Shown here: in pieces, positions 20,933 through 32,043 of the stretch | How the letters are laid out: the number at the start of each line of letters is the position of its first letter | Numbering within the stretch: the stretch's first letter is position 1 | Assembly (NCBI RefSeq): GCF_017874535.1 | Contig: NZ_JAGGLS010000003.1 | Span: 62,001 to 126,000, forward strand | Origin: Anaerococcus nagyae | GTDB lineage: Bacteria > Bacillota > Clostridia > Tissierellales > Peptoniphilaceae | DNA length: 64,000 nt | Reading direction: 5' to 3' | Notes under the pieces: model-generated | Seen by the model: only the letters and a program-made list of their open reading frames with translations | Told to the model about the DNA's origin: nothing | Databases searched by the model: none | Position numbers and translations under genes: made by a program

Positions 20933-22336
20933 ATGCAATATTTGCTTAATGCAGCAGATTTTTTGTGGTCCCATGTCATTGGCTACGTTTTACTTGCGGT
21001 AGGACTGTACTATTCATTAAGACTTGGATTTCCACAATTTAAATATTCTGGACAAATTAAGAAAGTTTTAAGAAAAAACTTAAAAAGTTCTGAAGGTGTC
21101 AGTGGTTTTGCAGCACTTGCAACTGCAGTTGGTGGACAGGTTGGTACAGGTTCTTTAGTAGGGGTAGCCTCAGCTATAGCTTATGGTGGACCTGGTGCTA
21201 TTTTTTGGATGTGGATTACAGCTCTTTTGGGGATGATCATCACATTTGCTGAAACTGTTTTAGGACAATTATATAGAGTGAAATTAGATGATGGTACATA
21301 CAGAGGAGGTCCTGCTTATTACGTACAAAATGGTCTTCATTCAAGAGTTTTTGCCGTAATAACAGCATTCTTCTACATAATAGGTGTAGGCTTATGTATA
21401 GCCTTTATGCAATCTAACTCTATCAGTCAAGCGTTTACAGGAGTTGTAGATGCCAATCCAATTTGGCCTGGTATAGTTGTGGCTATAGCTGCTGCAATCA
21501 TTACTATTGGTGGTGTTAAAAGACTTACAAACTTCTCTTCAAGAGTAGTTCCAGTAATGGCTGGCGCTTATGTACTTGTAGTTTTGATAATAGTTATAAC
21601 AAATATAACAAAGTTTCCAGCGGTTATTGGCCTTATATTTAAAAGTGCTTTTACTGCTCAAGCAGCCGTTGGTGGTATTATAGGCCATACAGTTATGGAT
21701 GCCTTTAGACATGGTGTTGCTCGTGGATTATTTTCAAATGATGCTGGGAATGGTATAGCTGGTATCATGCATGCAGCTGCTGATGTTAAACATCCTGCTG
21801 AACAAGGATTTTTAGGTATGTTTGGTACCTTTGTAACAACAATTATTATTTGTTCATTGTCAGCTTTTTCCCTACTTTTGACAGGAGTTGTTGGCGATCC
21901 AGCTAATGGTGATGGAATTGTTTTAGTTCAAGATGCTTTCCAAACTATAATGGGAATACCTGGTAGATGGTTAGTATTTTTTGCTATGCTAATGTTTGGT
22001 TTTACAACTCTTATAGCTGATTTATTCTATGGTGAAAGTAATATAATTCTTATCTTTAAGGAAAAATATAAAGTCCCACTTTGGATTTATAGGATTATTG
22101 CATTTATCATGTTTATTGTAGCTACACAAATGGATCTAGAACTTGTATGGGGATTCATAGATGTATTTGTTGGTATAGTTGTAATTATCAACGTAATTTC
22201 CTTATTCCTATTATTTAAGGATGTTAGAATGGTACTTAATGACTATAAGAGACAACTTGATGAAGGAATAGAAGATCCTGTATGGCACAGAGAAAAAGAA
22301 TATCATTTACATTCATATAAAGAAAATAAAAAATAA
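20933..22336 (+). CDS. Sodium:alanine/glycine symporter (AGCS family)
   Basis: Membrane carrier that brings in alanine or glycine with Na+. It is 467 residues with about 11 hydrophobic helices. Family signatures seen are the GFAALATAVGGQVGTGSLVGVA stretch early on (about residues 60-80), a GGPGAIFWMWITAL segment, and HGVARGLFSNDAGNGIAGIMHAAA near residue 260. The C-terminal tail is cytoplasmic and charged (YHLHSYKENKK). It is monocistronic, with its own consensus promoter, and ends in the structured repeat that doubles as a terminator. Substrate is from family knowledge. Confidence 0.94.
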   Translation: MQYLLNAADFLWSHVIGYVLLAVGLYYSLRLGFPQFKYSGQIKKVLRKNLKSSEGVSGFAALATAVGGQVGTGSLVGVASAIAYGGPGAIFWMWITALLGMIITFAETVLGQLYRVKLDDGTYRGGPAYYVQNGLHSRVFAVITAFFYIIGVGLCIAFMQSNSISQAFTGVVDANPIWPGIVVAIAAAIITIGGVKRLTNFSSRVVPVMAGAYVLVVLIIVITNITKFPAVIGLIFKSAFTAQAAVGGIIGHTVMDAFRHGVARGLFSNDAGNGIAGIMHAAADVKHPAEQGFLGMFGTFVTTIIICSLSAFSLLLTGVVGDPANGDGIVLVQDAFQTIMGIPGRWLVFFAMLMFGFTTLIADLFYGESNIILIFKEKYKVPLWIYRIIAFIMFIVATQMDLELVWGFIDVFVGIVVIINVISLFLLFKDVRMVLNDYKRQLDEGIEDPVWHREKEYHLHSYKENKK

Positions 22337-22502
22337 TAAAAGGGGCTGTTGCAAAACTGTGAATAATTATCGTCCCACCATCAGAAGTTTCTCTTAAGAA
22401 ATTTTTTACATAGCCTGCAAGCTCATGGAGGTAAAATTTCCATAGATGTTCTTCTAATTATATTGGGACGATTTATTCATTCTGCACCAGCACCTTTTTT
22501 TA
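22337..22502 (+). repeat. Structured ~165-nt repeat element, copy 1 (also acts as terminator)
   Basis: The ends GGGGCTGTTGCAAAA and GCACCAGCACC plus TTTTTTT face each other. Inside, ATCGTCCCA (22369-22377) pairs with TGGGACGAT (22464-22472), then GAAATTTT...AC pairs with GTAAAATTTC. The apex holds TAGCCTGCAAGCTCATGGAG with a small CTC-ATG-GAG loop. A homologous copy lies at 31374-31520 (minus strand) and a probable shortened relative at 39152-39204. This one directly follows the symporter stop in sense orientation. Confidence 0.75.
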
Positions 22503-22930
22503 TGTAAGGTATGGAATTATAGTAAGATAGCTTATTTTATAAACTTGTCAATTAACATCTAAAATACATAATTTCTTTTTAATTTATTTCACCTATATTG
22601 ATCTCATAACTATAGTTTTCTCATAGCATTATTAAAATCTACATTTCTAATTATTGTTCTTATCTCTAGAATTATATAGATTTTGTTTTATATTTTTTAA
22701 AATAAAATTTTAATTATAAATTTTACTCATATATATTTGCTATAAATACTAGCTTTCAAGGATTTTATAGATGCATACAATAGTTATAAAATATGAGAAG
22801 TATTTTAATTTTAAAATTCAATATATTATATTTAATAAGTAACCACAAAAATGTGTATTTTAATATTTTCAGTATGTGTTATCATAATAATCGACAAGGA
22901 CATATAACATAAACACAAGGGGGAAATATT
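22503..22930 (+). other. Long AT-rich leader before the secreted protein gene
   Basis: About 430 bp without a convincing gene. A possible extended -10, TGTTATCAT, is at 22877-22885, without a good -35. RBS AAGGGGGAAA precedes ATG 22931. The A/T richness is higher than in other gaps here. Confidence 0.45.
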
Positions 22931-23944
22931 ATGAAAAACACAAAAACAAAATTATTAGGACTAACACTATCAGCATCATTTGTATTATCTTCTCTAGCTC
23001 CAGCAGTAGCATCAGCTAGTGCAGAAGATGTAGCAACATCTAATTATGCTGTAACACAAATTGATCCAAGTGCAATAAATCCAGAAAAAATCAAAGATGT
23101 TATAGATAGAGCTGAATCATTAAAGAAAATTGTAAATAATTTACCTGTTCCAGGTAAAGGTGGTTACCTTAAAGCTTTAGATAAAATTATCGGAACTCTT
23201 AAAAATCTTGATCCTTCAAAAGCAGGCCCAAGAGTAGAACTAGCTTCTGATACAATTGAAGCAATCAGATTTTCAATTAAAGATATTCAAAATAAAACTA
23301 AGAAAGCTCATGTTGATATAGGAGTTGAAATAACAAAAGCAGCATTAGTTATGGTTGATCCATATGCAAGTAATGAAAAAATAGAAAAAGCTAGCGAGAA
23401 ATTACAAAAAGCTATAGAAACTGCAAAAGAATCAGCAGATATTACTGCGCAAGACGTTGCTACAATATATGTTAAAAAGCCTCTTGCTAATTTAATAGAA
23501 GAAGCTAGAAAACTTAGAAGAAATAAAGATCTTACAGAAGATCAAAAAGCTGAATTAAATAAAGCTATCAAAGAAGCAGTTCATACTAAAAACCAAGCTA
23601 GAGTTACCGTTGGAGAAATCACTGCTGCACAAGCTAAACTACAAAATTTCTTAGATAACTTTACAATTGGTAAAGTAGAAAATCCTACTGAAGAAGAAAC
23701 TATAGATCCAGAATTCAACGATAAAGATGTAACAAAGGAAGAGGATTCTGATCTTGTTGATCTTGAAAATTTAGATACTACTGATGTGGAAGAGCCAGAA
23801 GAAACAGGAGAAGCAGAAAAAACTCCTGAAGAATCTGAAGAAGAAGCAGAGGAAACTTCTGAAGCAACAGAAGAAGAAACTAAAAATACAGAAGAAATTC
23901 CAGAAGCTCCAGAAGAAAACGAAACAATAGAAATTAACGAATAA
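22931..23944 (+). CDS. Secreted helical protein with acidic C-terminal tail, function unknown
   Basis: I do not recognise a named family. It is 337 residues. A Sec signal peptide is clear: MKNTKTK, a hydrophobic stretch LLGLTLSASFVLSSLAP, and a likely cut after AVASASA (about residue 31). The mature part (about 40-245) is predicted helical. Its segment DLTEDQKAELNKAIKEA resembles FIVAR/three-helix surface modules. The last ~85 residues are almost only Glu, Thr, Pro and Ala (EEPEETGEAEKTPEESEE and similar). No LPxTG anchor, no C-terminal membrane helix and no lipobox Cys are present, so it should be released or held by charge. It is monocistronic, with a strong RBS and its own terminator. Role could be surface, metal binding or host contact; unproven. 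Confidence 0.75.
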   Translation: MKNTKTKLLGLTLSASFVLSSLAPAVASASAEDVATSNYAVTQIDPSAINPEKIKDVIDRAESLKKIVNNLPVPGKGGYLKALDKIIGTLKNLDPSKAGPRVELASDTIEAIRFSIKDIQNKTKKAHVDIGVEITKAALVMVDPYASNEKIEKASEKLQKAIETAKESADITAQDVATIYVKKPLANLIEEARKLRRNKDLTEDQKAELNKAIKEAVHTKNQARVTVGEITAAQAKLQNFLDNFTIGKVENPTEEETIDPEFNDKDVTKEEDSDLVDLENLDTTDVEEPEETGEAEKTPEESEEEAEETSEATEEETKNTEEIPEAPEENETIEINE

Positions 23945-23988
23945 TTTCTTCTATAATATCCTTCTATTATACAAGTATTTTAGATGAT

Positions 23989-24015
23989 TGAGGACCTTAT
24001 GGTCCTCTTTTTTTC
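23989..24015 (+). terminator. Terminator after the secreted protein gene
   Basis: GAGGACC (23990-23996) with a TTAT loop pairs with GGTCCTC (24001-24007), followed by seven T. Confidence 0.93.
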
Positions 24016-24093
24016 GAGTAATTAAATGTTTAAAAATACTTTTATAGGTTATAAAAGTCAATAAAATGGTTATTATAATTATAGAGGAATATT

Positions 24094-24780
24094 ATGAAAA
24101 ATAAAATTTTAATGGTTCTTACAAATAGATCCAGATATGAAAATGGTTTTGAAAAAACAGGTTTGTGGCTGAGTGAAGCTACCGAATTTATAGACGAAGT
24201 AAATTTTAGATATGAGATTGATTATGTAAGCTCCAAAGGAGGAAAAGTTCCATTAGATCCGCGAAGCCTAGAAAAGAAATATGTGAAAAAACGTGATATA
24301 GAGATTATGGAAAGTTTTGATTTTAAAAATCGTGCTTTAACAAATTCTCTAAGACCAGATCAAATAAACCCCAGTGAATATATAGCCATTTATTATGCTG
24401 GCGGACATGGTGTACTTTGGGATTATCCTCATGATTATAATGTACAAGTCCTAGCCTCATATATTTATAATCATGGAGGCTACATAGCTACAGTTTGCCA
24501 TGGACTAGCAGGGATACTAAATCTATTAGATATGAAAGGTGGATATTTTATTAAAGACAAAAATGTCACAGGTTTTACTAATGCTGAAGAAATATTAGGA
24601 GGAAAGTTTAATAAGCTTCCATTTTTAACTGAAAATGAAGCTCGTAGAAGAGGAGCAAGTTTTAATCAATATTTGCCTTTTACAGAATATGTAATAAAAG
24701 ATGGTAGATTAATTACTGGTCAAAACCCTCAATCAGCTAGAAAAGTAGCACAGATATTATTAAGTAATATATCAAAATAG
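24094..24780 (+). CDS. DJ-1/PfpI superfamily protein, Hsp31-like
   Basis: Class I glutamine-amidotransferase-like fold, Hsp31/glyoxalase III branch; it probably handles methylglyoxal or protein glycation damage. It is 228 residues. The nucleophile elbow is ATVCHGLAG with Cys near 135, and YYAGGHGVLWDYP (about residues 104-116) is the oxyanion and acid-residue region typical of the YDR533c/Hsp31 type. It is longer than the 170-residue PfpI type found at 31534. Terminators lie on both sides, so it is a single-gene unit. Chaperone versus enzyme role is not decidable here. Confidence 0.88.
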   Translation: MKNKILMVLTNRSRYENGFEKTGLWLSEATEFIDEVNFRYEIDYVSSKGGKVPLDPRSLEKKYVKKRDIEIMESFDFKNRALTNSLRPDQINPSEYIAIYYAGGHGVLWDYPHDYNVQVLASYIYNHGGYIATVCHGLAGILNLLDMKGGYFIKDKNVTGFTNAEEILGGKFNKLPFLTENEARRRGASFNQYLPFTEYVIKDGRLITGQNPQSARKVAQILLSNISK

Positions 24781-24818
24781 TATCATTTTCTTAGTTAAAT
24801 ACTATATATAATTATTAT

Positions 24819-24847
24819 GTAAGTCCTTAGGGCTTACTTTATTTTTA
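24819..24847 (+). terminator. Terminator after the Hsp31-like gene
   Basis: GTAAGTCC (24819-24826) with a TTA loop pairs with GGGCTTAC (24830-24837), followed by TTTATTTTT. The following ~210 bp are AT-rich with no gene seen. Confidence 0.82.
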
Positions 24848-25061
24848 TTTAAAATATTTAAATAAAAAAATAATATAAAAATTCTTTTAAATAATTTTCT
24901 AATATTTATATTGGCAAATTTTTGATTATTAATTATAATAATTACTAGTCGTATTTATTAGAGCTTGATGAAATATTTAAATTTATTATCAATATAAGCA
25001 ATATGGCGTTATTTTTTATTACAGCTTTAAAAAAAGATGAATTACATAGTTAGGATATTTG

Positions 25062-25343
25062 ATGTATATATATTTATTAGATATAAAATTTAAAATTGAT
25101 TGTAGTTTTAGCCTCAAAGATAAGAGGGAAGTTATCAGATCAATCATAGATTATGCTAGAAATTCTCTTAAGATATCGTCTGCAGGGCTTACAGATAATG
25201 ATATGAGAAATTTTGCCCATTTAGGATTTGTAACCATATCAAATGATAATGATAAAGCTAAAACTATTCTTGAAAAGTTAGTTAATCGAATAGAGATAAA
25301 ATATCCAATAGAAATAACTGATTATTACATAGAAAGGATTTAA
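25062..25343 (+). CDS. DUF503 family protein
   Basis: Small conserved protein of unknown function (DUF503, YlxP-like). It is 93 residues from ATG 25062, chosen over a TTG 3 nt earlier because AGGA lies 6 nt before the ATG. The N-terminal strand YIYLLDIKFKIDCSFSLKDKR matches the family pattern with the conserved SLKDKR. The middle ISSAGLTDNDMRNFAHLGFVTIS carries the family's alternating strand, and the C-terminus ends in the conserved helix and strand. In many Firmicutes the gene sits between infB and rbfA; here it is instead beside a flavodoxin/ferredoxin gene (1 nt gap), so the usual ribosome context is absent. Confidence 0.82.
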   Translation: MYIYLLDIKFKIDCSFSLKDKREVIRSIIDYARNSLKISSAGLTDNDMRNFAHLGFVTISNDNDKAKTILEKLVNRIEIKYPIEITDYYIERI

Positions 25344-25344
25344 T

Positions 25345-26112
25345 ATGCTAATATATTTTTCAGCAACAGGCAATACTAAGCATTTAGTAGAAGAAATTGC
25401 CTATAAAGATGAAGAAATAATTGCAATAGATAATGCAGATAAGATAAAAGAAATTAATTTAGGAAAAAATGATAGGCTTGGAATATTAGCTCCAACTTAT
25501 GCAGGAGGACTTCCAGAAAATTTAAAAGTTTTTTTGGAAAATTTAATTATAAACTATACTAGTCATCCTTATACATTTTACATAGGAACTTGTGGTGGCT
25601 CTACAGGTTTTAGTAGCAAAGAGCTAAGGGATATATTTATAAAAAAGGGAATGGAGCTAGAAGCAAGCTTTTCAATAAAAATGCCAGATGCATTTCTTCT
25701 TTTAACAGACGTAAATGACAAAGAAAAGATAAACCGAATTAATAAACAAGCCGATAGAGAAATATTAAATATAAAGCAAAAGCTTGATAGTGGAGCTATA
25801 GGTGATTTTGTTGAATCAAAATTACCAAAAGCCATTGCTAGTGCAGTTCAATCAGCCTATGGGAAGTTTAGATTAACTGATAAATTTAAGGTAAGCAATG
25901 CATGTATATCTTGTGGAATCTGTGCTAGAGATTGTCCAGTAGATACAATTAAGATAACTATGGATAGACCTACTTGGGTAAAAGAATCATGTTTACTTTG
26001 TCTAAGGTGCTTGCATGCTTGTCCGACAAATGCTATTAGTTATGGAAAGAAGACTAAGGGTCGTGGTCAATACCTACATCCTTCATATCATGATAATTTA
26101 GATGAATTATAG
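25345..26112 (+). CDS. EFR1-family flavodoxin-ferredoxin fusion protein
   Basis: Electron carrier that joins a flavodoxin-like FMN domain to a two-cluster ferredoxin. It is 255 residues. The N-terminal YFSATGNTKHL is the FMN phosphate loop and GTCGGSTG near residue 90 also contacts flavin. The C-terminus has two 4Fe-4S motifs, CISCGICARDCP (about 192-203) and CLLCLRCLHACP (about 220-231). It is typical of strict anaerobes, passing low-potential electrons, for instance from pyruvate oxidation, to unknown partners. It starts 1 nt after DUF503. The acceptor is not known. Confidence 0.92.
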   Translation: MLIYFSATGNTKHLVEEIAYKDEEIIAIDNADKIKEINLGKNDRLGILAPTYAGGLPENLKVFLENLIINYTSHPYTFYIGTCGGSTGFSSKELRDIFIKKGMELEASFSIKMPDAFLLLTDVNDKEKINRINKQADREILNIKQKLDSGAIGDFVESKLPKAIASAVQSAYGKFRLTDKFKVSNACISCGICARDCPVDTIKITMDRPTWVKESCLLCLRCLHACPTNAISYGKKTKGRGQYLHPSYHDNLDEL

Positions 26113-26117
26113 AAGAT

Positions 26118-26150
26118 AAAAGTGGGTAGACATCTAATACCCGCTTTATT
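26118..26150 (+). terminator. Terminator after the EFR1 gene
   Basis: AAGTGGGTA pairs with TACCCGCTT across a 9-nt loop. The tail TTATTAATT is poor in uninterrupted T. Confidence 0.6.
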
Positions 26151-26174
26151 AATTAAAAAAATGAGGAGGATAAT

Positions 26175-26525
26175 ATGAAATTAATTTGTTATAAAAAATG
26201 TACTACCTGTAAGGGCGTAGAGAAAATGTTAGAAGAAAAAGGTATTTCTTATGATTATCGTGATATAAAAGAAGATAATCCAAAATCAAGTGAACTTAAA
26301 TCTTGGCATGAAAAAACAGGATTACCAATAAAAAGGTTCTTTAATACTTCTGGTAAGATTTATAGAGAAAATAATTTAAAAGATAAGGTAAATGATATGA
26401 GTTTAGATGAGGCTTATGATCTTTTATCAACTGATGGGATGCTTGTAAAAAGGCCAATACTCTTCACTGATGAGGGAGAAATTTTTGTAGGACCAGATGT
26501 AAAGAAATATATAGAAAGTTTATGA
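26175..26525 (+). CDS. ArsC/Spx/YffB-family thioredoxin-fold protein
   Basis: Thioredoxin-like reductase or regulator. It is 116 residues with GAGGAGG before ATG. The N-terminal KKCTTCKGVEKML has a CxxC (Cys 9 and 12) as in Spx and YffB rather than the single Cys of R773 ArsC. The later GMLVKRPILFTDEG holds the conserved KRP of the ArsC fold. Arsenate reduction is unlikely without the ArsC catalytic arginine set; a glutathione- or bacillithiol-independent redox role fits better. Its stop overlaps the next ATG by four bases, linking it to the membrane protein and the methionine-sulfoxide enzyme downstream. Confidence 0.88.
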   Translation: MKLICYKKCTTCKGVEKMLEEKGISYDYRDIKEDNPKSSELKSWHEKTGLPIKRFFNTSGKIYRENNLKDKVNDMSLDEAYDLLSTDGMLVKRPILFTDEGEIFVGPDVKKYIESL

Positions 26526-27130
26526 AAAAAAGATATAAATTTAACATAACGCGTTATATAATATATCTAATAATATTAGTTATTGCTTATCATTTTGTAA
26601 TAAGTCATCCATTTACTAATAAAGAAAAAACGCGAGATGAAATAGTATCAGAAAATATAAAAGATTTAGAAAAATCTACAAATGAACTAAAGGGACTTAT
26701 TAAAAAGGATAAAGATGCACTTAATTCGTTCTTTTATAATGAAAAAACTTACGAAAAGATAAGAGGTCTAATAGATACTTATCCAGATGATAGGGAACTA
26801 AAGATAAATGATAATTTAAAAATAATACTAAATCAAGAAGGCAGTCCTGTGAAGGTAAGATATAAGAGAGCAGAGTTTGAAATAGTAAATACCAAGCTTG
26901 CTCCTACAGAGGATAGTCAAAATAAGCCAGAAGTTATAACTGATGTAAAAGTTATAGAAAATCCTAATGGGATAAATAGATTTGAGCTGATTCATGATTT
27001 AAAGACTTATTTAGTAGATTCATATGGGCAAAATGCCTTAAATAATTTCTTAGATGGGATTATTAGAGATACTATTATAGAAAATAAGGAAATAATAGAT
27101 AAATTAGGTAAAAACAACAAGGAGAACTGA
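26522..27130 (+). CDS. Single-pass membrane-anchored protein, function unknown
   Basis: I do not recognise a family. It is 202 residues. The basic N-terminus MKKRYKFNITR is followed by one hydrophobic helix (YIIYLIILVIAYHFVI, about 12-27), so the rest should be outside the membrane (signal anchor). The outer part has a charged coiled-coil-like stretch (SENIKDLEKSTNELKGLIKKD), then a beta-rich centre (LKINDNLKIILNQEGSPVKVRYKRAEFEIVN in parts), and a helical C-terminus. There is no Cys or metal motif. Four-base overlap with the gene before and one-base overlap with the one after make it part of a three-gene redox operon. Confidence 0.75.
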   Translation: MKKRYKFNITRYIIYLIILVIAYHFVISHPFTNKEKTRDEIVSENIKDLEKSTNELKGLIKKDKDALNSFFYNEKTYEKIRGLIDTYPDDRELKINDNLKIILNQEGSPVKVRYKRAEFEIVNTKLAPTEDSQNKPEVITDVKVIENPNGINRFELIHDLKTYLVDSYGQNALNNFLDGIIRDTIIENKEIIDKLGKNNKEN

Positions 27131-27627
27131 TGACTTTTGAGTTAAAAGGCTTAGTAAATTTAGATGATAGAAAACGTATGGATGAGTTAATAAATTTTAT
27201 AAAAATACAATTAGATGATGAGAGTGATAAATTAGCTTTGATGAGTAATATATCAGCTTTTATTATGGGTTCCATAAGAGATCTAAACTGGGCTGGATTT
27301 TATTTTTATAAAGAAGATGAGCTTATCTTAGGGCCTTTTCAAGGACTCCCTGCTTGCACAAGACTTAGCTTAGATAAAGGAGTTTGTGCAAAAGCATTTT
27401 GTAATAAGAAAACTATAAAGGTTGATGATGTCCATGAGTTTACTGATCATATAGCTTGTGATAGTCAATCAGAAAGTGAGCTTGTACTTCCACTTTTCAA
27501 TGAAGAGAAAGTTTATGGAGTCCTAGATTTAGATTCTCCTATAAAAAATAGATTTACTGATATAGAGCTTGAGGGTTTCACAAAGATAGCTAAACTAATC
27601 GAAGAGAAAATATATGAAGAATTTTGA
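27130..27627 (+). CDS. GAF-domain free methionine-(R)-sulfoxide reductase
   Basis: Reduces free Met-R-sulfoxide, an oxidative-damage repair step in the cytoplasm. It is 165 residues, a single GAF domain. The three Cys positions typical of fRMsr are present: PACTRL (near 78), GVCAKAF (near 88) and IACDSQS (near 117), the last being the catalytic one. SISAFIMG-like and NWAGFYF segments also match. It is the last gene of the ArsC-like/membrane/fRMsr operon, and the ArsC-like protein could act as reductant (inference). Confidence 0.9.
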   Translation: MTFELKGLVNLDDRKRMDELINFIKIQLDDESDKLALMSNISAFIMGSIRDLNWAGFYFYKEDELILGPFQGLPACTRLSLDKGVCAKAFCNKKTIKVDDVHEFTDHIACDSQSESELVLPLFNEEKVYGVLDLDSPIKNRFTDIELEGFTKIAKLIEEKIYEEF

Positions 27628-27650
27628 GAAGGCCTATGTCTTCTTTTTGT
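27627..27650 (+). terminator. Terminator after the Met-sulfoxide reductase gene
   Basis: AGAAG (27627-27631) pairs with CTTCT (27640-27644), followed by TTTT and further T-rich runs. The stem is short. Confidence 0.6.
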
Positions 27651-27699
27651 GTTTTTTTTCTTTTTTTGATATAATTATTCAAATATTAAAGGAGAATTT

Positions 27700-29067
27700 A
27701 TGAAAAAGAAGTTAAACTTTAGAGAAGTTTTATTAGTGGGATCATTATTATTCGGATTATTTTTTGGGGCTGGAAATTTAATATTTCCTCTAGAATTGGG
27801 TCAACAATCTGGATATAATCTAAATCCTGTGATTGTAGGCTTTTTAATATCAGGTGTTGGTTTACCTATTATTGGTGTTACCGCAGCTGCAATGAGTGAT
27901 AGCGAATCATTATTTGAACTTGCAAGGCCCGCTAGCAAAAAATTTGCGTATTTTTTAACTGTATTATTATATATAACAATAGGCCCTGGCTTTGCAATTC
28001 CTCGTACTGCTACTGTGTCATATGAAATTGGACTCAAAGGTCTTACAAATGTAAGCGATAAAGCTATGCTCTTAGTGTTTTCTGTAGTATTTTTTAGCTT
28101 AGCCTTGTATTTTTCCTTAAAAAAAGGAAATCTTATAAATACAATCGGTAAGTATATGACACCAATTTTTTTGATTTTATTAGCTATATTACTTATAATG
28201 TCTATAGTAAATCCAATGGGTCCAACAAAATCAATACCGCCAATAGAAAAGTATCAACAAAGTCCATTTACTATAGGAATTATAGATGGATATAATACCC
28301 TTGATGCTCCCGCATCTCTTGCTTTTGCTATAATAATAATAGCAGCTATAAAAGAACTTGGTGTAAAGGAGCCTAAATATATTGCTAATGAAACGTTAAA
28401 AGCAGGTCTTATCTGTCTAATTGCTATGAGTCTTGTTTATTCATCTCTTGCTATAATGGGCTCGGCATCAACATCTATTATGGATATCAAAGAAAATGGA
28501 GCCTTGGTTTTAGCCGCTATTAGTAATCATTATTTAGGTAAATATGGCCACATTTTGTTTAGTTTAATAGTATTTATAGCCTGTCTTAAAACAGCTATTG
28601 GTCTAATATCTGCCTGTTCAGAAATGTTTAACCAGCTTTTAAAATTTGATATTTCCTATGAGAAATACTGTGTGATTTTTGCTATAGTTTCATTTTTGAT
28701 AGCAAATCTAGGACTTAATACGATAATATCATTATCGGTTCCAGTATTAATGTTCTTATATCCTATTTGTATAGTTCTTATAATACTATCTCTATTTTCA
28801 TTAAAGATAGGTAAAAACCATAATATATACAAATGGACCCTTATATTTACAATAATAGCTGCATTTTTTGATCTTTTATCAAATTTACCTTATGGTTTAG
28901 CCGATAGCTTATTAGTTAGCAAAACTTTAGCCTTGCCTAAGAGATTTTTACCAGGATTTGATTTGGGATTTGGTTGGATCTTGTTAGCATTGATTGGTTT
29001 TGTAATTGGATATATAATTGATAAAAACAATAAGAAAAGTAAAGTAAGCTATACGTCTGGCAATTAA
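27700..29067 (+). CDS. brnQ: Branched-chain amino acid:cation symporter BrnQ
   Basis: Membrane carrier for leucine, isoleucine and valine driven by Na+ or H+. It is 455 residues with about 12 hydrophobic helices. The family opening GSLLFGLFFGAGNLIFPLELG is at about residues 14-35, and GPGFAIPRTATVSYEIG near residue 96 is the LIVCS signature. RBS AAAGGAGAA. It ends in a strong terminator, so it is probably its own unit. Substrate is from family knowledge. Confidence 0.95.
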   Translation: MKKKLNFREVLLVGSLLFGLFFGAGNLIFPLELGQQSGYNLNPVIVGFLISGVGLPIIGVTAAAMSDSESLFELARPASKKFAYFLTVLLYITIGPGFAIPRTATVSYEIGLKGLTNVSDKAMLLVFSVVFFSLALYFSLKKGNLINTIGKYMTPIFLILLAILLIMSIVNPMGPTKSIPPIEKYQQSPFTIGIIDGYNTLDAPASLAFAIIIIAAIKELGVKEPKYIANETLKAGLICLIAMSLVYSSLAIMGSASTSIMDIKENGALVLAAISNHYLGKYGHILFSLIVFIACLKTAIGLISACSEMFNQLLKFDISYEKYCVIFAIVSFLIANLGLNTIISLSVPVLMFLYPICIVLIILSLFSLKIGKNHNIYKWTLIFTIIAAFFDLLSNLPYGLADSLLVSKTLALPKRFLPGFDLGFGWILLALIGFVIGYIIDKNNKKSKVSYTSGN

Positions 29068-29083
29068 TAATTGCCAGTTTTTT
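29057..29083 (+). terminator. Terminator after brnQ
   Basis: CTGGCAATT (29057-29065) pairs with AATTGCCAG (29069-29077) across 3 nt, followed by six T. It overlaps the brnQ stop and lies 12 nt before the trmB start. Confidence 0.9.
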
Positions 29084-29095
29084 GTAAGGAGAATT

Positions 29096-29722
29096 ATGAG
29101 ATTAAGATTTAAACCAAATGCTATTCCAGAAATGAAAGGGAATGATAAAATATTTTTCTATCCTAGGGATATGAAAGATAAGTGGTGTGAAGTATTTAAT
29201 AATGAAAATCCAATCCACTTAGAAATAGGTGCAGGAAAGGGTGATTTCATAGTGGAGATGGCAAAGAGAAATCCAGGAATTAACTTCATAGCACTTGAAA
29301 TGAATACTAATGCTTTTGTTATAGCTAGTAGAAAAATTGAAGAAGAAAAGTTAGAGAATGTAATAGGTTTAGTAGATTATGGAGAGGAATTAACAGAAAC
29401 TTTTGGAGAAAATGAGATAGATCATATTTACATAAATTTTTCAACTCCTTGGCCAAAGACAAAACACCACAAAAGACGTTTGAGCCATCCTAGATTTTTA
29501 GAAAGATATAAGATTATTATGAAAGATGGAGGAATAGTTGAGCAAAAAACAGATGATAGAGGATTTTTTGATGATTCTTTAAAATACTATGAAGATTTTG
29601 GCATGGAAATTTTGTACAAGAATTATGATCTTTTAGAAGAAGAATCGATAGTAACCGAATATGAGAAAAAATGGAGAGATAGAAATAAGCCTATTTATTA
29701 TGCAAAAGCTAAGTTTAGATAA
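29096..29722 (+). CDS. trmB: tRNA (guanine-46-N7)-methyltransferase
   Basis: Methylates G46 in the variable loop of tRNAs using S-adenosylmethionine. It is 208 residues, the usual length. The SAM loop is LEIGAGKGDF (about 42-51). The family signature appears as INFSTPWPKTKHHKRRL, where most members have NFSDPWPK, so the Asp is Thr here. TEYEKKWRDRNKPIYYA closes the protein, matching the TxYE...G..I pattern. RBS TAAGGAG. The Thr substitution is worth noting because this Asp is usually conserved. Confidence 0.94.
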   Translation: MRLRFKPNAIPEMKGNDKIFFYPRDMKDKWCEVFNNENPIHLEIGAGKGDFIVEMAKRNPGINFIALEMNTNAFVIASRKIEEEKLENVIGLVDYGEELTETFGENEIDHIYINFSTPWPKTKHHKRRLSHPRFLERYKIIMKDGGIVEQKTDDRGFFDDSLKYYEDFGMEILYKNYDLLEEESIVTEYEKKWRDRNKPIYYAKAKFR

Positions 29723-29875
29723 ATCATTTCTAGATAAATTTATTATATATACTAGTTTAATTTATCTGTATTAAAGAAAAGTTATAAGTAAAGAAACTTA
29801 ATTTTATTTAACATGGACTTTAATTTATTTATATTTACTGTATAATATTATCAAAACATAAATAAAGGAATTAAT

Positions 29876-30487
29876 ATGACTAAAAGAAAGAATGGTTTTC
29901 TTCAGGGACTTATAGCAGCCCTTATAGTAACTGCTATAGCTGGTATTTTTGGATTTTTAATAAAAGATAAGTTTGCAGTGGAAGAAAATGACGAGATCAC
30001 ATCGGATATCGTAGAATCTTCCCTAAAAGAAGTAAAAGAACTTACAACTTTAAAATACCATTATAAAAATGTAGCTTCATTTGAAAGTAGTCAACAATTT
30101 CAAGGAATCAAACTTCCATTTACAACTAAAAGTTTCTTATATACCTATGAAGGTGATATAAATGCAGGGGTAGATCTTGATCAAGCGAATGCAAGTGTAG
30201 ATGAGAATAATAAGATTATTACCATTAAGCTACCAGATGCTAAGATTTTAAGTCATGATATAGATGAAGATTCTATAATGATATTTGATGAAAAAAACTC
30301 GGTATTTAATCCTATGGAACTTGAAGATTATACCAACTTTAGAAAAGAAGAGGAAGCAAAGGTAGAAAAAGAAGCTGTAAAAAAGGGATTGCTAAAACAA
30401 GCTAGTCAACAAACAGATAAAGCTATAAAGGAAATATTAAACATTAATCCTATTATAGCAGAAGAATACACAATAAGCATCAAATAA
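29876..30487 (+). CDS. DUF4230-type membrane-anchored protein
   Basis: Function unknown. It is 203 residues. The lysine-rich start MTKRKNG is followed by a Gly/Ala/Ile-rich membrane helix (about 9-28), after which the protein should face outward. The extracellular part carries the DUF4230 pattern: LKEVKELTTLKYHYKNVASF, then GDINAGVDL, then KIITIKLPDAKILSHDID. The C-terminal half is a Glu/Lys-rich helix. A TATAAT at 29841-29846 lies 30 bp upstream. A terminator follows. Both this and the 26522 protein have an N-terminal anchor but I see no sequence relation between them. Confidence 0.8.
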   Translation: MTKRKNGFLQGLIAALIVTAIAGIFGFLIKDKFAVEENDEITSDIVESSLKEVKELTTLKYHYKNVASFESSQQFQGIKLPFTTKSFLYTYEGDINAGVDLDQANASVDENNKIITIKLPDAKILSHDIDEDSIMIFDEKNSVFNPMELEDYTNFRKEEEAKVEKEAVKKGLLKQASQQTDKAIKEILNINPIIAEEYTISIK

Positions 30488-30520
30488 AAGCTGGGTCATT
30501 TTACATACCCGGCTTTTTTA
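30488..30520 (+). terminator. Terminator after the DUF4230 gene
   Basis: AAGCTGGGT (30488-30496) pairs with ACCCGGCTT (30507-30515) with one G-T pair, followed by TTTTTA. It also lies just beyond the end of the convergent gene at 30533. Confidence 0.87.
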
Positions 30521-30532
30521 TAGTATCTAAAT

Positions 30533-31246
30533 TTATATAGTGAGCTTATATACTAAAGTAACAATAGGGTAGAGAACAACTTGGTGTGTTAAGTATATGA
30601 TCATAGCATGTCTGCCAATTTTTGCCAGCCAATTATCTTTACCGTATTTATAATAAAAGTTATTTGAAATTAAAAACTTCCCTAAAGAAAAACCTGATAA
30701 ATATATAAATATCCAAGGAATCATAGGGAAATAATCACTTGAGGCAAAATTACTTCCAGGGAAACCAAGTATGGCTAAATTACTATCATAGAGATTTTTA
30801 AAAAAGTTATAAGTATATAAACTTCTTTCTGGTATATTATAAGTAAATATAAAGATCACTAAAAATATAAAGAAGTATTTAAAATCAAAATCAAGATGCT
30901 TTTGCAAAATCCCTGTTATAAGCATTGATGCGCCAAGTCCATTGAGTACTCCCCAAACAATCATTTGCTCGGGAGCAAAAAAATAGGTAGTAAGACTTAT
31001 AGCAAATCCAATCAAAGATGTAATTAATCCCCTATTTATATTTTTTTCTGAGCTTAAAAAATTAGAGGTAATTCCTGATATGATAAAAAATGAGCAGGCT
31101 ATAGATAGCTGCCATATTTTATTAAAAAGTGTTCCATCATACCAAGAAATTTTCCAGTAAAAATTTATATTATACATTAAGTGAAATAAAACCATGGAAA
31201 TAATTGTAAATCCACGGAACTTGTCTAAATTATAATTTCTTTTCAT
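30533..31246 (-). CDS. Membrane protein with HGSNAT/DUF1624-type acyltransferase domain
   Basis: Multi-helix membrane protein, 237 residues, with about 7 hydrophobic segments. The start NLDKFRGFTIISMVLFHLMYN matches the DUF1624/heparan-glucosaminide N-acetyltransferase pattern (D..RG....MV.FH), with a His in the first helix that in relatives takes part in acetyl transfer. PMIPWIFIYLSGFSLGK near residue 175 is also typical. Bacterial members may acetylate cell-surface sugars; the substrate here is unknown. It is shorter than fused members. It is monocistronic on the minus strand. Confidence 0.82.
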   Translation of the reverse strand: MKRNYNLDKFRGFTIISMVLFHLMYNINFYWKISWYDGTLFNKIWQLSIACSFFIISGITSNFLSSEKNINRGLITSLIGFAISLTTYFFAPEQMIVWGVLNGLGASMLITGILQKHLDFDFKYFFIFLVIFIFTYNIPERSLYTYNFFKNLYDSNLAILGFPGSNFASSDYFPMIPWIFIYLSGFSLGKFLISNNFYYKYGKDNWLAKIGRHAMIIYLTHQVVLYPIVTLVYKLTI

Positions 31247-31373
31247 AACTTTATTATAACATTTATATTATTATTTATATAATCAATTTACAAAAATATA
31301 GCTAAAGTTGGGAGTTCGTATCTCATAATTTTATAAGATGATATAAAAAAACATTATAAAGAAAAAAATAGGG

Positions 31374-31520
31374 AGTTTTAGAGACAAATAAATCGTTCCA
31401 AAATAATAGGAACATCCTATCAAAAGTTTGGACTCTATGAGTCAGCGGGCTAAATATCAAACTTTCTAATAGGACACCCAATGATGGAACGATGGATATC
31501 TATTAATTTACAGCAGCACC
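31374..31520 (-). repeat. Structured repeat element, copy 2
   Basis: Reading on the minus strand: GGTGCTGCTGTAAA, ATCGTTCCA, a long stem TCCTATTAGAAAGTTTG with its partner CAAACTTTTGATAGGA, and apex TAGCCCGCTGACTCATAGAG. Then come GATGTTCCTATTATTT, TGGAACGATTTATT, and CCCTATTTTTTT just beyond. It is homologous to 22337-22502, with paired changes in the stems. It follows the stop codon of the minus-strand DJ-1 gene in sense orientation, so it would form the end of that mRNA. Confidence 0.72.
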
Positions 31521-31533
31521 ATAATTATTTGTA

Positions 31534-32043
31534 TTACTTACCAAGTTCTTTAACTACTGTTGTAACATGAACAGGTAGATCCACTGGTGTTCTTGCAGTT
31601 ATGATATTATTATCAACTACACATTCTTCGTCTACCCAGTTTGCACCTGCATTTTTAATATCTGTAGAAATTGTTGAGACTGATGTTGCTTTTACTCCAT
31701 CAAGTATGCCAGCTTCTGCTAATACCCATGGACCATGGCATACAGCTGCTACTATTTTGTCTGCTTCGTGCATTTCTTTTACAAATTTAACTGTATCTTT
31801 ATTTTGTCTCATCGCATCTGGAGAATACCCACCTGGTATATATACTGCATCAAAATCGGATGCACTAACTTCACTAGAAGCTTTGTCAGATTTTATAGTC
31901 CAACCACCAGCTTTTCCTGTATATTCTGTATCAGCTTCACTACCTAATAGTGTTACTTCATAATCTTCTCTAAATCTATGATAAGGATAGATTAATTCTG
32001 ATTCTTCAAAATTATTTTCAACTAAAATTGCAATTTTTTTCAT
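31534..32043 (-). CDS. DJ-1/PfpI family protein (protein/nucleotide deglycase type)
   Basis: Cytoplasmic 169-residue protein of the PfpI/YhbO/YraA type, linked in relatives to removal of glycation damage or stress survival. The nucleophile Cys is near 102 in AAVCHGPWVLAEAG. The conserved acid is Glu in NFEESELIYP (near residue 14-16), and YIPGGYSPDAMR is the oxyanion loop region. RBS AAAGGAGAT on the minus strand. It lies 50 nt after the helicase gene and ends in the structured repeat. It belongs to a different subfamily from the Hsp31-like protein at 24094. Confidence 0.93.
   Translation of the reverse strand: MKKIAILVENNFEESELIYPYHRFREDYEVTLLGSEADTEYTGKAGGWTIKSDKASSEVSASDFDAVYIPGGYSPDAMRQNKDTVKFVKEMHEADKIVAAVCHGPWVLAEAGILDGVKATSVSTISTDIKNAGANWVDEECVVDNNIITARTPVDLPVHVTTVVKELGK

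Follow-up and report, generated by a model that had tools for sequence, protein, structure and literature searches.

Miniature inverted-repeat transposable elements (MITEs) are short transposons without a gene of their own. According to the excerpts of the literature on which this and the later comparisons draw, the insertion sequence IS1272 replaces inverted repeats without target duplication, for which a cruciform model has been proposed, and some of its targets are not inverted repeats (Wan et al. 2017, PMC5678879). TnSha1, with IS1272, is found in terminator hairpins, with the target partly deleted and with both orientations in one terminator (PMC4923244). Here we describe a palindromic repeat present in two copies in a 64,000-nt stretch (the window; NZ_JAGGLS010000003.1, 62,001-126,000) of the 1.75-Mb genome of Anaerococcus nagyae, the host. 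Judging from genome comparison, these repeats are a mobile element and not a conserved RNA. We consider it highly likely that they form an Anaerococcus MITE with IS1182-family ends, which would replace terminator stem-loops by the inverted-repeat-replacing route.

Both repeats, with their shared blocks, had been described in an initial annotation of the window and were confirmed in the sequence, where their limits could be tightened. The relevant features are:

22337..22341, plus strand: A-rich stretch from the symporter stop codon to copy 1 (sequence)
22342..22494, plus strand: copy 1, subfamily A, with one apical unit, 153 bp (sequence, blast, consensus comparison)
22495..22501, plus strand: T-run 3' of copy 1 (sequence), which, judging from other sites, is probably the T-tract of the terminator that was replaced
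30487..30518, plus strand: plain terminator hairpin 3' of a DUF4230 gene, where an element of subfamily A stands in A. octavius
31362..31370, minus strand: T-rich run 3' of copy 2 (sequence)
about 31371..31520, minus strand: copy 2, subfamily B, with a decayed outer stem, about 150 bp, with its right end fixed only to within a few bases (sequence, consensus comparison)

At the sites orthologous to copy 1 and copy 2, A. octavius has plain hairpins, the reverse of the situation at 30487-30518. For three further relatives that are about 90% alike (G007, G014 and G017), 18, 10 and 10 stretches around copies among the matches listed yielded 42 elements and 12 comparable sites (flank match above 150 nt, identity above 75%). 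At eight of these sites an element stands against a plain hairpin, and at one of the eight the element is present in two genomes with apices of differing length. The remaining four have the element in both genomes: alike at one, different in the apex at two, and flipped at one, so that it lies in opposite orientations in two species. Over all discordant orthologous sites, the element-free genome has a hairpin in 11 cases out of 11 (8 + 3), with z-scores of -1.7 to -6.6. At sites whose flanks closely resemble each other, the interval from A-tract to T-tract is filled by the hairpin in one genome and by the element in the other, with both tracts retained, and no target duplication was seen there by eye (no statistical test). 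The apex changes and the flip at shared sites could reflect element-for-element replacement or local conversion; in a comparison of arm identities bearing on the former, the copies were too alike to discriminate.

An identical end state would result if the MITE inserted beside terminators in the usual way and the redundant hairpin was later lost by slippage between short repeats, a part that the A- and T-tracts could conceivably play. We regard this course of events as unlikely, given that neither an intermediate with both element and hairpin (searched for by eye) nor a duplication was found at the compared sites, and that one-step replacement of a stem-loop is reported, in the excerpts available, for the same IS family (PMC5678879).

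When the element end GGGGCTGTTGCAAAA was used as a search pattern, G005 and G011 (A. octavius) proved to contain an insertion sequence of 1804-1809 bp. Its frame of 522-523 codons matches the IS1182 family transposase model (NCBIfam NF033551, 293 bits at a cut-off of 270) and the Pfam domains DUF772, DDE_Tnp_1 and DDE_Tnp_1_6. MITE and insertion sequence have the same unequal ends, GCAAAA on the left (GGGGCTGTTGCAAAA) and, read from the end inwards, GCAGAAT on the right. Among 20 stretches checked for the right end of the insertion sequence, 12 contain it with at most three mismatches (L285-L289, L291, L296-L300 and L303); L290 holds the ends of other elements, L292-L295 have none, and L301, L302 and L304 do not cover the end. 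The statement in the initial annotation that no named family fits therefore stands for the short element, for which searches were made, and not for the larger insertion sequence sharing its ends, which belongs to the IS1182 family.

MITE and insertion sequence also meet at the same target. Two sites of the insertion sequence were read in 14 of 31 genomes matching each flank. At the first (L297), A. octavius has the insertion sequence, the host a subfamily A MITE, G015 a subfamily B MITE and ten genomes a plain hairpin, G012 being masked. At the second (L286), the insertion sequence is present in G005, a MITE lies in the corresponding intergenic region of the host, though not demonstrably at the same base, and 11 genomes have a plain hairpin, with G006 masked. 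In 14 of these 21 cases an automatic scan chose the same hairpin as the eye had, and in seven another or none; for these seven, folding by name gave a hairpin with a T-tract in every case. By parsimony, the plain hairpin would be the ancestral state at both sites. At most of the sites compared, the exchange probably ran from hairpin to element.

The left ends of the insertion sequence in L255, L258 and L262 have a terminator-like hairpin of their own directly inside (GACGAGG...CCTCGTCTTTTT). A second IS1182 lineage of the genus (L306-L308, in G015, G003 and G009) was set aside, its ends, read by eye, being different (CAGACTGTAGACAAAG...). Ends of the IS6 type, suggested at first by GGnnCTGTTGCAAA, were dropped as a candidate because the full insertion sequence proved to be IS1182. 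The matching ends also bear on the idea of a REP-like palindrome mobilised by a Y1 (RAYT-type) transposase. Such an origin would suit an element that is palindromic, extragenic and present in many copies, and Y1 transposase matches occur in 21 of the 31 genus genomes; G011, G017 and G029, however, bear elements without a Y1 match, and the ends are those of an IS1182-type element, which leaves this origin scarcely credible and the IS1182-derived MITE as the preferred reading.

The family is dispersed throughout the genus. Further copies, which the initial annotation had proposed to look for, are numerous: with copy 1 as query, blast returned 25 places in the host genome that hold a full or nearly full copy, and a second query six more, copy 2 included, giving at least 31, besides three places with internally deleted forms. 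In a genus search (E <= 0.01), 28 of 31 genomes have a match to the subfamily A consensus; in a family search (E <= 0.001), 26 of the 31 genus genomes and one of 99 others do. The latter match, in another genus of the family (G124:C2:45843-45998), reaches 69% over query positions 25-161 and may reflect an old transfer or an older origin. Subfamily B matches 15 of 120 genomes, every one within the genus, and the end GGGGCTGTTGCAAAA is present in 21 of the 31 genus genomes, compared to none of the 31 for the reversed pattern. Phage and plasmid records gave no element match.

The setting of the element was surveyed in 73 copies, from 31 of the 34 host places (the three deleted forms included among the 34) and all 42 from the relatives, taking open reading frames (ORFs) of at least 80 aa as genes. 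A stop codon lies within 60 nt of 60 of the 73 copies, as against 23% of random intergenic points, and 3 of 72 copies lie between divergent genes, as against 21% of such points, the random points being drawn solely from 38 stretches of relatives. In the other settings, 27 copies are convergent, 25 tandem sense and 17 tandem antisense, the last two numbers speaking against sense orientation as a rule, as the initial annotation had it. Near host copies lie two THF riboswitches (L026:868-959 and 1745-1836) and one TPP riboswitch (L024:2245-2341), and a second repeat family is located 3' of one element copy in G007 (L129:2614-3157), with copies in G014 and G017 too and many further matches in these three relatives.

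Within the window, copy 1 is preceded by a sodium:alanine symporter gene (PF01235, end at 22336) and copy 2 by a DJ-1/PfpI gene (PF01965, end at 31534), which upholds the gene names AGCS and DJ-1 given earlier. The symporter's six closest relatives likewise point to Anaerococcus as the genus. No ORF of at least 80 aa runs over either copy, and a window scan with the subfamily A and B consensuses returned strong matches at copies 1 and 2 only, the next one covering 26 nt at an E value of 0.008. Each of the two copies folds better than 200 of 200 shuffles (z -6.65 for copy 1 in the repeat run). The many copies elsewhere in the genome and the occurrence of the end GGGGCTGTTGCAAAA, but not of its reversed pattern, in the genus bear out the earlier view that they are not random hairpins.

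The element has a size of about 150-230 bp, has no transposase gene and is a nearly perfect palindrome, with consensus folds of -84.3 kcal/mol for subfamily A and -91.8 kcal/mol for subfamily B (12 copies), compared to -30 to -64 kcal/mol for individual host copies. Its apex consists of one to four units of about 22 nt, which are at times inverted; the apical block described as kept in the initial annotation is real, but is this repeated unit. Length classes near 157, 179, 200 and 233 bp are common in the three relatives. One element of G019 (L269:1569-1659) has the apical unit CTAGCTCGCCGGCTCATGGAGG head to tail, 22 nt x 4.1. At the other extreme stand palindromes of 38 to about 50 bp that comprise barely more than the two ends and are followed by T-runs (L264, G013:C5:7043-7080; L257 and L278, in G003), the smallest deleted form being the 38 bp of L264.

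Given such strong folds in both window copies, it seemed conceivable that the element is a conserved structured RNA, either a 3' UTR element or a regulatory terminator, with its fold under selection, as the initial annotation had suggested from bases that change in pairs between the copies. Over 63 pairs of the subfamily A consensus, this was partly right: between copy 1 and copy 2, eight pairs are double-changed and paired in both, and six are double-changed and not, next to seven single-changed pairs that are paired in both, 11 that are not, 26 unchanged paired, one unchanged unpaired and four gaps. Covariation was assessed in a set of 22 copies of subfamily A: one is from A. octavius and the rest are 21 of the 25 in the host, L016 and L023 (inserts) and L024 and L026 (divergent) being left out. 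No excess emerged, with 8 double-change pairs against 9.7 in shuffles, 87.0% against 87.3% paired cells, and an observed value below the shuffle mean on all five measures; RNAalifold predicted no pair in the same copies, and the element is unmatched in Rfam. The cells of this comparison (22 copies by 63 pairs) comprise 1036 unchanged, 155 single-changed and broken, 85 single-changed and paired, 9 double-changed and paired, 14 double-changed and broken, and 87 gaps.

For the most part, the paired changes noted earlier distinguish the subfamily consensuses from one another. From consensus A to consensus B, eight of the 63 pairs are double-changed and paired, one is double-changed and broken, one single-changed and paired and three single-changed and broken, with 50 unchanged; between the host A consensus and that of the three relatives, two are double-changed and paired and one single-changed and paired, with 58 unchanged and two gaps. 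In 17 copies of these relatives, 10 of 86 changed cells are double-changed and paired, a count made without a shuffle control. While the 8 of 13 changed pairs between A and B and these 10 of 86 cells could be taken as support for a selected RNA, the element occurs in both orientations relative to genes, and, because it is present or absent as an insertion at orthologous places in different species, we reject a conserved RNA as the main explanation and rate it as very improbable. Two findings that the initial annotation had named beforehand as telling against its proposal, the lack of significant covariation and a match to the ends of an insertion sequence, both came out, against the RNA half of its claim. 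Of its other half, a MITE that serves as terminator, the MITE stands, and a terminator role fits, in that the element occupies the place of a terminator-like hairpin in relatives.

For the MITE, the pattern of changes fits pairing that is kept while an element is mobile and decays after landing, one of several possible histories. As a tentative extension, which we hold to be possible but doubtful, the MITE might have become specialised as a donor of hairpins. Selection would then maintain pairing over the full length of mobile copies, because transposition works on the extruded stem-loop, and pairing would decay in resident ones. A resident MITE would moreover be an excellent palindromic target, so that MITEs would replace MITEs and terminators would turn over repeatedly throughout the genus. 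This would explain why paired changes are frequent between consensuses (8 of 13 for A and B, 2 of 3 for host and trio) and fewer in resident copies (9 of 263 changed cells in the host and, in the trio, whose copies are younger, 10 of 86). It would likewise account for the apex that differs at three of the four shared sites with like orientation, and for the element being flipped at a fifth.

Replacement of terminators by the MITE would most likely proceed as follows. The transposase of the 1.8-kb IS1182-family insertion sequence of the genus probably mobilises the MITE in trans. The target would be a palindrome, in practice an intrinsic terminator stem-loop, which would be removed by the inverted-repeat-replacing route proposed for IS1272. 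The MITE would then stand where the stem-loop had been, flanked by the A-tract and T-tract left from the terminator, and no target duplication would arise. Being itself a long hairpin beside A- and T-tracts, the resident MITE probably keeps ending transcription of the preceding gene in either orientation, so that insertion would cost little, and copies would decay once landed.

Several observations weigh against this scheme. No movement has been observed, the evidence being genome comparison. The transposase has relatives in 12 of the 31 genus genomes, as against 28 of 31 for the element. In the host no transposase was matched, and a left-end remnant (L035/L282) is what is left of the insertion sequence; with the host and most element-bearing genomes lacking the transposase, the link between MITE and insertion sequence therefore rests on past activity. 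The 11 hairpins at discordant sites were chosen by eye and then folded; two are weak, with 7 and 11 of 200 shuffles equally good, and the one 3' of L200:19220 is without a clear T-run. The element at L217/L231 begins with the same bases as the plain stem (GGAGC), which could be a remnant. Finally, two terminator scans found no terminator-like site at copy 1 or copy 2, under rules (loop <= 8) that also overlook the plain hairpin at 30487, and terminator activity of copy 2 is doubtful because its outer stem has decayed.

Stem-loop replacement by an IS1182-type element has so far rested, in the literature excerpts available, on one staphylococcal element and its composites. In the Anaerococcus MITE family, with its likely parent, the same exchange is seen throughout a genus at numerous sites, where genomes with and without the element form natural before-and-after pairs. 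The MITE also provides a DNA substrate of very small size for a route of transposition that so far exists as a model, and the family indicates how the terminators of a genome can be swapped wholesale at little cost. A search of titles and the beginnings of abstracts, with subscription journals and preprints outside its scope, found no published MITE of this kind, and the available text of a 2024 review of MITEs mentions neither IS1182 nor IS1272 (PMC10969869).

The closest described systems, going by the available excerpts, are IS1272 and TnSha1 of Staphylococcus (PMC5678879, PMC4923244), which share with the Anaerococcus MITE the IS1182-family transposase, inverted-repeat targets that are often terminators, removal of the hairpin wholly or in part, lack of target duplication and both orientations, the flip being seen here between species. 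They carry a transposase gene, whereas the element described here, a palindrome of about 150-230 bp present in tens of copies, is non-coding; their exchange is seen between strains, ours between species. Like prokaryotic MITEs in general, it is short and non-coding, with strong secondary structure and terminal inverted repeats in common with an insertion sequence (PMC10969869), but these usually duplicate their target (PMC3049150). BOX of Streptococcus pneumoniae is likewise a palindromic repeat with an inner module in variable number, but causes target duplications, and the excerpt of its description does not mention terminator replacement (PMC3049150). SPRITE of the same species, compared by description, consists of small terminator-like repeats with AAAA/TTTT flanks that are enriched after genes and between convergent genes, with no target duplication established; its hairpin is shorter, and no source element is named in the excerpt (PMC3049150). 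The likeness suggests looking for the same exchange in other terminator-like repeats, of which SPRITE, with its lack of an established target duplication, is one example.

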